Made by a program: the position numbers and the translations under genes
Notes under the pieces: model-generated
Databases searched by the model: none
What the model saw: only the letters and a program-made list of their open reading frames with translations
Told to the model about the DNA's origin: nothing
Shown: positions 26,701 through 45,800 of the stretch, one piece after another
Layout of the letters: the number at the start of each line of letters is the position of its first letter
Numbering within the stretch: position 1 is the stretch's first letter
NCBI GenBank assembly: GCA_903813345.2
Contig: CAIIXF020000001.1
Span: 16,697,915-16,761,914, forward strand
Direction: 5' to 3'
Length of the DNA: 64,000 bases
Source: Owenia fusiformis
Lineage: Eukaryota; Annelida; Polychaeta; Sabellida; Oweniidae

Positions 26701-28431
26701 GTCCGTCCGTCCGGGCAATAACTCAAATACCGTTGGCCCGATTTTGTTCATATTTTGTACACATATACCCAATGGGAGTAGAAGTTCTGCTCGAAAACCG
26801 ATTTTCAAAATGGCCACTCATTTAAAAATGGCGGCCATTTTAGTGCCGATTTTACAGTAATTTAGGTACTGCATATAAAACTGTAATAGCAATATGTTTT
26901 AAATGTAAAAAGTTATATAGGACATTGATTAAGCTAGAAATGTAAATATAGAAGAAATACATGGCAGCCATCTTGAAAAATGGCTGCCTTTGCACGTCAT
27001 TTTTCGATTTTTGCTGTAACTTGAAAAGTAGTGGAGCGATTTTGTTCATATTTGGTATGTGAATACTTTTAGCATGACACAATGTCTAATGACATTTTTG
27101 GTAGTAGGCAGCCATTTTGAAAAATGGCCGCCATTTTTACGTGTGTTATTTAAATTTTTTTACTGTAAGTCAAAAAGGAGTGGAGCAATTTTGTTCTAAT
27201 GACATTTTGGGTAGTAGGCGGCCATTTTGAAAAATGGCCGCCATTTTTATGTGTGTTGTTTTACATTTTTTACTATAACTCAAAAAGTAGTAGAGCGATT
27301 TTGTTCATATTTTATATGTGAATACTATAAGCATGGCACACTGTCTTATGACACTTTGGGTAGTAGGCGGCCATTTTGAAAAATGGCCACCATTTTTACG
27401 TTTTTTACTATAACTCGAAAAATATTGGAGCGATTTTGCTCATACAATGTATTTGATATGTGAATATATGCATGGCACATTGTCTAATTAAACTTTGGGG
27501 AGTAGTCGGCCATTTTGAAAAATGGCCACCATTTCTATGTGTGTTATTTTACATTTTTATTATAACTCATAAAGTAATAGAGCGATTTTGTTCATATTTG
27601 ATATGCGAATACTCGTAAGGATTGCATACTGTCTCATGACATTTTGAGTAGTAAGCGGCCATTTTAAAAAATGGCCACCATTGGCAATCTTTTAAGAATT
27701 TTATATGTGGCTACTTAAAAGCATATTACTTCTGATGACAACTTGGCTTGGTGATCAACCATTTTGAAAATGGTGGCCTTTCTTATGGGTGTTATTTTAT
27801 GATATTTGCTATATATTTTGTATGTAAAAATGCCAGCCATTTCTGTTCGATGGGATTCGCTACGCTTTGGCGTTGCCGTTGTTCTGGTTAAAATGAGTGT
27901 TGTATCTTTTATTAAGTGATCTAATCATTTTAGAGGTATCTCATTATTCATTCATAAATATATTTATGATTGTTTACATCTCATGCCATGGAAGATTTAA
28001 ATATTAACAGCACTCCCTATATACTGATTACTGACCCCCATAGAATATAGAAATTAAGCAGGGAGTAGTACAGAATCACAAGTTACTTGTGCTTATACAC
28101 TTATTATGCCACTATGTACCCTCCTAAAAGGTTGTGTGAAAATATTTGGTTATGGTCCTGAGAAAGTATCTCTTTATAGTCAAATAATTTTCAGTGTCCC
28201 AAACAAAAATTCAAAAGAAAATATGATTCTTTCTTCTATTAATTATGTATTTTAATTTTCCATTTCCACTTTATTTCAGGTGAAAAAACAAAACTGCAGA
28301 CGAAGCCAAAATCTCGGAGAAGCAAATCCAAGCACCAAGATGTGGAGGGTGTATTCAAAACTATAGACACAGATATGGGCCAGTGGTCAGAGACATCTAT
28401 TATCAAAAGCTCTGATGAAGGCAGTAGCTAG
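11790..28431 (+). CDS. HELLS: lymphoid-specific helicase (HELLS/LSH), SNF2-family chromatin remodeller
   Basis: Coding exons: 11790-11907, 12721-12836, 13163-13666, 13900-14124, 14433-14646, 15225-15286, 18471-18809, 19102-19239, 19508-19690, 21770-21996, 22321-22446, 22825-22930, 23347-23508, 23743-23933, 24211-24427, 24859-24978, 25341-25457, 25803-25962, 26301-26513, 28280-28431. All introns are GT-AG and phases join into 1229 codons plus stop. Visible motifs are a charged coiled coil (residues 247-321), Walker [10 protein letters not shown] (584-592), motif II DEGH (695-698), [38 protein letters not shown] and motif [11 protein letters not shown] (1064-1072). Family knowledge: LSH is a nuclear ATPase that remodels nucleosomes to support DNA methylation and heterochromatin, activated by CDCA7. 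It is longer than the human protein (838 residues) because of acidic, low-complexity N-terminal exons 1-3 and 5-7. An in-frame TAA 15 bases upstream supports the start; MDRSESP at 11832 is an alternative. The last exon exists in a second copy at 40032. Confidence 0.95.
12221..12361. mobile_element. palindromic MITE-like hairpin in HELLS intron 1
   Basis: GGGGTAATATCGTCGAATAC on the left faces a near-complement ending in ATTACCCC on the right; the arms are about 50 bases and enclose a short CCTTCGGTTGCTC tip. It lies between HELLS coding exons 1 and 2. Layout resembles the hairpins at 45714 and 50206. Confidence 0.65.
12453..12585 (+). repeat. intronic dispersed repeat (GTGACATTTTGCATG family), copy in HELLS intron 1
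   Basis: It contains the family words TTTTTGTGGATGG, TCTGTAACAAATGGCA and GTGGTGACATTTTGCATGTT. The 5' palindrome found in fuller copies is not clear here. At least eight relatives occur in the window, all in the same orientation. Confidence 0.65.
14690..14850 (+). repeat. dispersed repeat fragment (TCTAATCTGAACACC type)
   Basis: It lies in HELLS intron 5. GTCTAATCTGAACACCACTG resembles the minus strand of 57056-57150 (AATCTGAATGCTACTGGGAC), and a looser relative with repeated AAGTGGAACACC words is at 49735-49880. Function and class are unknown. Confidence 0.4.
15322..15412 (+). repeat. intronic dispersed repeat (GTGACATTTTGCATG family), 5' part
   Basis: The copy begins TATGTCACCACCACAAGTTG with the short palindrome TGTCACCAC/GTTGTGACA, continues through GTTTGGTGGTTTGTGTTCAG, and lacks the 3' end of the family. 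It lies in HELLS intron 6. Confidence 0.6.
15521..15738. mobile_element. MITE with TA target and AGATTGGGTTAATTTG inverted ends
   Basis: The left end CTGTAGATTGGGTTAATTTG faces a right end whose complement reads CTGGAGATTGGGTTAATTTG; TA flanks both ends (15519-15520 and 15739-15740). It is about 218 bp, has no coding capacity and lies in HELLS intron 6. Confidence 0.7.
16017..16132 (+). repeat. intronic dispersed repeat (GTGACATTTTGCATG family), HELLS intron 6
   Basis: It begins ATGTCACCACCACAAACCAC and ends TGACATTTTGCATGTTAATG. Same orientation as the other copies, with a short internal deletion. Confidence 0.65.
16346..16672 (-). CDS. small cysteine-rich secreted protein nested in HELLS intron 6
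   Basis: A 108-residue frame on the strand opposite HELLS. It starts with a clear signal peptide ([17 protein letters not shown], predicted mature start near residues 18-24). The mature part has two related halves: [20 protein letters not shown] and [11 protein letters not shown] followed about ten residues later by [11 protein letters not shown], separated by a basic GRRKR stretch that could be a processing site. There are eleven cysteines beyond the signal region's last one by my count of the two halves, spaced mostly as CxC or CxxC pairs. The ATG directly follows an acceptor-like TTTTTTATAG on the minus strand, and a consensus donor ATG/GTAAGT lies at 17250, so a 5' untranslated exon is plausible. 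AATAAA lies at 16302-16297 (minus), just past the stop. I do not recognise the family, and its function is unknown. Confidence 0.6.
   Translation of the reverse strand: MKYRVLVILVFCLIAFCKPSTTQQREELSNQGENWMRFTNCNELRRGWCECQECGCVGRRKRFLKAIQSEGRRAFRFTDCNEFTKNPDQEQHGPMYYCTCYGQCRCVL
16715..16830. repeat. C-tract-rich low-complexity stretch
   Basis: Runs of 13 to 15 cytosines alternate with AGTGAACCCCC words, repeated twice within about 100 bases. It lies immediately upstream (minus-strand sense) of the nested secreted-protein frame. Confidence 0.6.
17516..17715. repeat. two-copy tandem repeat, period 102 bp
   Basis: A unit beginning CATTTGTTTGTAAATCAAA recurs 102 bases later with few changes (17516-17617, then 17618-17715). 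It lies in HELLS intron 6 and is non-coding. Confidence 0.8.
17815..17998. mobile_element. near-perfect hairpin MITE with TA target
   Basis: The arms of about 80 bases are reverse complements: the left one starts AAGGGTGTCCTGAAAATATG, the right one ends CCATACTTTCGGGACACCTG, and both share ATATGACACATACTATG. TA flanks the ends (17813-17814 and 17999-18000). Non-coding, Tc1/mariner-like by target and end type; HELLS intron 6. Confidence 0.75.
18264..18397 (+). repeat. intronic dispersed repeat (GTGACATTTTGCATG family), full-length copy
   Basis: It begins TATGTCACCACCAGAAGTGG with the 5' palindrome TGTCACCAC/GTGGTGACA and ends AGTGACATTTTGCATGTTAA. HELLS intron 6, about 75 bp before exon 7. 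Confidence 0.7.
20230..20870. repeat. degenerate minisatellite (CAATATCACCCAAATAT type) in HELLS intron 9
   Basis: About 640 bp of imperfect 12-17 base units built from the words CAATATCA, CCCAAATAT and CCAATAT, with larger recurrences such as ATAGCAATATCACCCAAATA. It is strongly depleted of G on the + strand. Confidence 0.8.
21026..21140. mobile_element. short hairpin element in HELLS intron 9
   Basis: TTCACATCGAGCATAATAAG near 21027 faces CTTGTTATGCTCTATGTGAA ending near 21140, with GTCTCCA/TGGAGAC continuing the stem. It may be a small MITE. Confidence 0.6.
22516..22567. repeat. exact 26-bp tandem duplication
   Basis: A 26-base unit starting AATATTTCTGTCATTCC occurs twice head to tail in HELLS intron 11. 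Confidence 0.9.
23183..23304 (+). repeat. intronic dispersed repeat (GTGACATTTTGCATG family), HELLS intron 12
   Basis: It contains TGGTCTCCAACATTTTTGTG and GGTGGTGACATTTTGCATGT. The 5' end is diverged, and it ends about 40 bp before exon 13. Confidence 0.6.
25191..25286 (+). repeat. intronic dispersed repeat (GTGACATTTTGCATG family), HELLS intron 16
   Basis: This is the 3' part of the family: TCTGTAACAAATGGGAGGTG followed by GGGACATTTTGCATGTTAAT. It ends about 55 bp before exon 17. A still shorter remnant with CATTTTGCATG is near 24073-24104. Confidence 0.6.
26631..27856. mobile_element. repeat element with GTCC microsatellite and tandem GGCCATTTT palindromes
   Basis: Terminal inverted words ATCCCATCGAAC (26631) and GTTCGATGGGAT (27845-27856) bound the block in HELLS intron 19. 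Near the left end is a run of GTCC/GTAC units followed by GGGCAATAACTCAAATACCG. The body consists of about seven degenerate tandem units of 110-149 bp, each with a GGCCATTTTGAAAAATGGCC-like palindrome (near 26966, 27111, 27221, 27370, 27509, 27658 and 27755) followed by GAGCGATTTTGTTCATATTT. The last quarter, from 27490, is inside the tandem segmental duplication and recurs at 39242-39608. A related fragment is at 63825-63960. Confidence 0.75.

Positions 28432-45800: not shown

Follow-up and report, generated by a model that had tools for sequence, protein, structure and literature searches.

The duplicated unit and its filled and empty copies

The stretch of DNA analysed here (the window, 64,000 nucleotides of Owenia fusiformis, C1:16697915-16761914) lies in C1, a scaffold 62 Mb long in an animal assembly of 498 Mb and 525 contigs, and contains two head-to-tail copies of a 5,494-bp unit, the first of which carries a piggyBac transposon while the second has an empty site. 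The unit joins parts of two genes, at one side what is likely the last exon of a remodeller of the LSH/DDM1 type and at the other the first exon that codes for AMPK-alpha. Copy 1 occupies 27490-39241 on the plus strand (5,494 bp plus a filled insertion of 6,258 bp) and copy 2 occupies 39242-44735 on the same strand (5,494 bp). With 31526-37783 removed from copy 1, the remaining 27490-31525 and 37784-39241 equal 39242-44735 over all 5,494 bases with 0 mismatches and 0 gaps, a length that rules out chance identity, and self-comparison of the window returned this relationship as two perfect blocks (27490-31525 = 39242-43277 and 37780-39244 = 43274-44738). A reading made beforehand from the letters alone (the sequence-only reading) had described an exact tandem duplication without mismatch, the second copy being the first minus 6,258 bases (a 6,254-bp piggyBac and one TTAA), so that a filled and an empty site are paired in one contig. 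Direct comparison confirmed all of this: the copies are not diverged, TTAA stands on both sides of the insert (31522-31525 on the left and 37780-37783 on the right) and copy 2 has a single TTAA (43274-43277). The end of the duplication had been put at 44738; the numbers are right, but the unit itself ends at 44735 and the extra three bases are an AAA common to both breakpoints. The description of the duplication as 'very recent' stands as an upper bound (0 of 5,494, 95% bound about 0.055%), conditional on polishing not having homogenised the copies.

In each genome search the best 40 candidates were scored, unless there were fewer, and the resulting counts of places are lower bounds. Among the best 40 of 7,388 candidates, matches to the first 4 kb of the unit were confined to the two places in the window, and a third genomic copy of this part is unlikely, to judge from that search; the last 0.9 kb is part of a dispersed repeat. 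There are no N bases in the window or in the adjoining 7.9 kb and 9.1 kb (17 kb).

The piggyBac element and its relatives

The 6,254-bp insert (31526-37779, plus strand) is a genuine piggyBac, with the TTAA duplication, a transposase that has an aspartate triad and a putative Cys-rich tail domain, and near-identical copies elsewhere. Its left end reads CCCTCTCTTTACGGG and its right end, as reverse complement, CTCCTTCATTACTGAGGG, the forward strand finishing in ...CCCTCAGTAATGAAGGAG; the two termini resemble each other loosely and can be aligned only with gaps, and BLAST of the left against the right terminal kilobase gave no match at the ends. The transposase gene (plus strand) has six exons (31804-31946, 32496-33532, 34213-34324, 34704-34820, 35384-35526 and 35817-36094; limits predicted from the sequence) that encode an uninterrupted 609 amino acids with standard splice sites. 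The protein has a DDE_Tnp_1_7 domain (Pfam, E 2.3e-84), and at E 0.001 its matches in the PDB were two: piggyBat, at 2.4e-46, and the transposase of 6x67/6x68, at 9.4e-31, the latter of which we take to be that of Trichoplusia ni piggyBac. The protein aligns to piggyBat and has an aspartate triad, D271, D350 and D462; by our reading of the motifs, these would be equivalent to D268, D346 and D447 of T. ni piggyBac, as numbered in PMC7351741. The tail (residues 567-609, the last 43) contains six Cys and two His and has no Pfam match. In its domain, aspartate triad and TTAA duplication the element is like the piggyBac superfamily as represented by piggyBat of Myotis and T. ni piggyBac, and its Cys-rich tail and CCC-type left end may be further likenesses. 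It is unlike T. ni piggyBac, which has a single open frame (PMC7351741), in that its transposase gene has five introns, and it is unlike both in being 6.25 kb long and in containing a repeat nested within it (about 380 bp) and a tail of two units (about 430 bp each). The nested repeat, in a transposase intron (34850-35230), is 95-97% alike at at least 34 genomic places, and its TTAA borders and short inverted ends are reminiscent of a TTAA-type miniature inverted-repeat transposable element. The tail units (36861-37297 and 37295-37722) lie in tandem and are 77% alike.

Outside the window there are at least three near-complete copies of the element, on C8, on C3 and at 54.1 Mb on C1, together with one relative of the 3′ tail at 85% (C4:29227827), among the best 40 of 3,050 candidates; most rows of this search came from the nested repeat, and the copy number is a lower bound. 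Both termini of the window element are present in the C8 and C3 copies, which like it have TTAA on both sides; the C1 copy has the right terminus and right TTAA only, its left end being altered. The window element is 0.41-0.46% apart from the other three. Across all four, pairwise differences in the 6,021 columns free of gaps amount to 0.41-0.52% and form a star-like pattern, the private substitutions numbering 11 in the window element and 15, 15 and 13 in the others (plus one further variable column). The transposase of the C8 copy is identical in protein to that of the window, that of the C3 copy differs at one residue and that of the C1 copy is broken. The intact frame and the near-identical copies are indirect indications that the window element may be transposition-competent. 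Coding exons make up 1,774 of the 6,021 columns (29.5%) and contain just five of the 54 private substitutions (binomial P 0.00034); the deficit persists when two columns from the left end of the C1 copy, which is altered, are dropped (5 of 52, P 0.0006) or when clusters are collapsed (5 of 46, P 0.0025). This suggests that the element lineages were mostly under selection until lately, and does not date the insertion in the window. Dating the insertion by the private substitutions of the element was in fact considered and rejected, as counts of 11, 15, 15 and 13 fit lineages of equal age wherever they were located: a cut-and-paste element would carry its mutations along, and the substitutions would date the lineage rather than the insertion.

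Filled and empty sites used as proof of transposon insertion form a familiar class, with element and duplicated target at one paralogous site and neither at the other. The window pair is like these, and unlike the usual ones in that its sites stand side by side, with identity throughout the unit. Nor is the pairing unique, as the assembly has two others in which one piggyBac site is filled and one is empty. One involves the C3 copy of the same family (C3:1784549), whose flanks recur without the element 1.4 Mb away (C3:418937); the mismatches number 5 over 826 bp of one flank and 15, plus a gap, over 1,285 bp of the other, and the paralogous empty site reads TGAA where the filled copy has TTAA. 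For the C8 copy no empty partner was found when one flank was searched alone (best 40 of 1,696 candidates). The other pair belongs to a different piggyBac family and lies on collinear unplaced contigs, where a 5,986-bp element with perfect CCCTTCTCGAAC ends and TTAA fills C67 (16206-22191) and is absent from C489 (27595-27598). These two contigs are allele-like and may be either alleles or paralogues. The unplaced contigs C67, C489 and C206 are round-sized (37,000, 61,000 and 25,000), suggesting cutting in 1-kb bins during scaffolding, while C481 (62,366) and C124 (588,817) are not.

Breakpoints and the genes joined by the unit

Both outer edges of the duplication cut dispersed repeats, which are of different families. 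The left one (26900-27890, plus strand) has at least 38 other places that span 27489/27490; the query began at 26900, and the true left end may lie further out. The right one (43836-44964, plus strand) likewise has at least 38 other places that span 44735/44736, the 38 being in each case a count among the best 40 candidates. The left repeat holds internal tandem units and its register is less certain than that of the right. As the repeats run unbroken across each outer edge elsewhere in the genome, the outer edges are ancestral and the junction between the copies (39241/39242), with its AAA microhomology, is derived; this is the one novel junction in the assembly, and the ancestral locus was therefore single. 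Homologous exchange between repeats was rejected as the cause, since only three bases are common at the join and the cut repeats are of different families. The right breakpoint was also considered as a natural repeat end, and thus the unit as a product of transposition; this too was rejected, as it was the query that had stopped there and the repeat continues to 44964. In being head-to-tail, with 3 bp in common and no long breakpoint homology, the duplication is like the known class of small tandem duplications with microhomology junctions, and it is unlike them in that one copy has a complete transposon and the other does not.

AMPK is an energy-sensor kinase. The first coding exon of its alpha subunit is present in an outer, upstream copy (30896-30992, plus strand), with the piggyBac within the intron downstream of it, and in an inner copy (42648-42744, plus strand) that can be joined in frame to exon 2 at 49412-49553. 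Exon 2 lies 18.4 kb from the outer exon 1 and 6.7 kb from the inner one, and has a single genomic match (11 of 11 candidates scored). The 32-residue peptide of exon 1 matched 15 PDB sequences at E 0.001, all of them AMPK alpha-1, alpha-2 or chimeras (best E 1.3e-8), and the downstream exons matched AMPK-alpha between 49405 and 57300, the similarity continuing weakly as far as 58201 (E 0.86). Within intron 2 of this gene a pair of inverted repeats (50710-51211 and 52790-53291, 502 bp, 97.6% identical) probably marks a young element with long inverted ends.

Upstream of the unit lies an SNF2 gene: of six open reading frames scanned there against Pfam, two matched SNF2 and one Helicase_C, one had a sub-cut-off match to MobB and two had no match. 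The best PDB relatives of the gene are DDM1 and lymphoid-specific helicase; its C-terminal frame matched lymphoid-specific helicase at 2e-7, and every other match to that frame was no better than about 1. An exon at 28280-28431 (plus strand), with a splice acceptor and the stop TAG at 28429-28431, is probably the last of this LSH/DDM1-type gene, the assignment being inferred from the sequence, and has an identical second copy at 40032-40183. Both genes thus seem to keep complete exon sets: the end of the remodeller would be the one in copy 1, and the start of AMPK-alpha the one in copy 2, where the site is empty. Remodellers of the LSH/DDM1 type are of the transposon-silencing type, and we regard the presence of one beside a piggyBac as coincidence, not evidence. 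Pfam scans of ten open reading frames of 122-206 amino acids gave nothing at E 0.01 and an ARAGORN scan found no tRNA. A further pair of inverted repeats (about 298 bp, 98.3% identical) lies at 4019-4316 and 5190-5486.

Origin of the duplication and order of events

We think it probable that the locus results from a real, very recent microhomology duplication of 5,494 bp, the copies of which were then made different by movement of the piggyBac. Two sites with no relation to each other, each in a dispersed repeat of a different family, would have been joined with 3 bp of microhomology, either by end joining or by replication template switching, so copying the segment from the end of the LSH/DDM1-type gene to the start of AMPK-alpha; the piggyBac, with its intact transposase, would then have differentiated the copies by insertion into copy 1 or by scarless exit from copy 2. 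Tandem duplication at microhomology and presence or absence of a piggyBac are both changes of known kinds, of which this is a clean, recent case.

The sequence-only reading had left the choice between a very recent origin and two haplotypes assembled in tandem. An assembly artefact, which could have set a filled haplotype next to an empty one or entered one locus two times in a row, would give the same appearance if the piggyBac were allelic, and an allele-like contig pair (C67/C489) does persist in this assembly; according to PMC9516828, false duplications amounted to 4 to 16% of three earlier assemblies. Among the marks of such duplications named there are gaps between the copies and half read depth, and at this locus there is no gap. 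The junction has 3 bp of homology only and breaks, at new positions, two repeats that are not related, and a novel gap-free junction of this kind favours an end-joined duplication: with AAA alone common to the flanks there would be too little for an overlap-based assembler to make the join without reads that contain it. The divergence of C67 from C489 provides a yardstick for haplotypes. Over three aligned blocks that total 18,900 bp, picked so as to leave out a repeat array and the larger indels, these contigs differ by 20 substitutions and 8 indels with no identical run longer than 2,286 bp, against no single-nucleotide or indel difference between the copies here; at that substitution rate 5.8 differences would be expected in 5,494 bp, and the chance of none is 0.3% under a Poisson model. 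Exact identity therefore counts moderately against two haplotypes. C124 was tried as a second yardstick and abandoned, as 8 kb of it gave partial matches only (2.8 kb at 100% on C4 and C10, and also a dispersed repeat). On this evidence we judge an artefact unlikely, and the haplotype half of the earlier alternative is weakened accordingly by both the junction and the C67/C489 divergence.

Several points nevertheless weigh against a real duplication. Two copies can come out of polishing with multi-mapped reads closer to each other than they really are. If C67 and C489 are allelic, their divergence is about 0.11%, and under a simple coalescent two such haplotypes would be identical along 5.5 kb about 15% of the time, so that exact identity by itself is insufficient against haplotypes. 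Lastly, no other such tandem duplication was found in the approximately 204 kb examined (window included), hence there is no base rate for the assembly; direct repeats of at least 500 bp at 97% or more were limited there to the window unit and one exact 2.2-kb pair. The latter (2,216 bp; C489, 7110-9325 and 12401-14616) was rejected as a second duplication, since TG...CA ends and a short repeated flank suggest long terminal repeats, probably those of a very recent retroelement.

The claim that the insertion came later than the duplication is unsupported. Excision of piggyBac can restore TTAA exactly and leave no scar (PMC7351741), and because of this 'empty' may mean 'emptied', the date of insertion is not established, and a filled site beside an empty one is compatible with insertion after the duplication, with excision after it, or with the joining of a filled and an empty homologue. 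Insertion into the TTAA of copy 1 by a piggyBac from elsewhere is the simplest order and has possible donors in the near-identical sister copies with intact frames; the sequence gives it no preference over excision, however, and the 11 private substitutions of the element date its lineage, not its insertion. Insertion before the duplication followed by scarless loss from copy 2 draws on the exact restoration of TTAA known for piggyBac (PMC7351741), an event that would leave no independent trace. Both orders would require the element to meet the same 5.5-kb stretch and to make one later movement, so that the odds between them would equal the rate of excision over that of insertion, which per element is expected to be about 1 or more. 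We regard these two forms of the real duplication as about equally likely, and each taken singly as possible without being probable. That the duplication joined a filled to an empty homologue, the piggyBac never having moved afterwards, we consider quite improbable: C67/C489 suggests that piggyBac insertions segregate in this assembly, but the homologues would have had to be identical throughout the 5,494 bp. Least credible is a single event, in which the piggyBac left one sister chromatid during replication and the break was joined through microhomology to the filled sister, giving at once the duplication and one emptied copy; we think this very improbable.

The locus illustrates that an empty site cannot date a piggyBac insertion. 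Were the single-event account true, a scarless transposon would be a source of structural variation, having given AMPK-alpha a second promoter and first exon. If the duplication is real, AMPK-alpha has two first exons that are identical, each with its upstream sequence, and the intron after one of them contains a transposon; the locus would offer a natural, nearly unaged filled and empty piggyBac pair that could be used as a PCR marker for current piggyBac activity.

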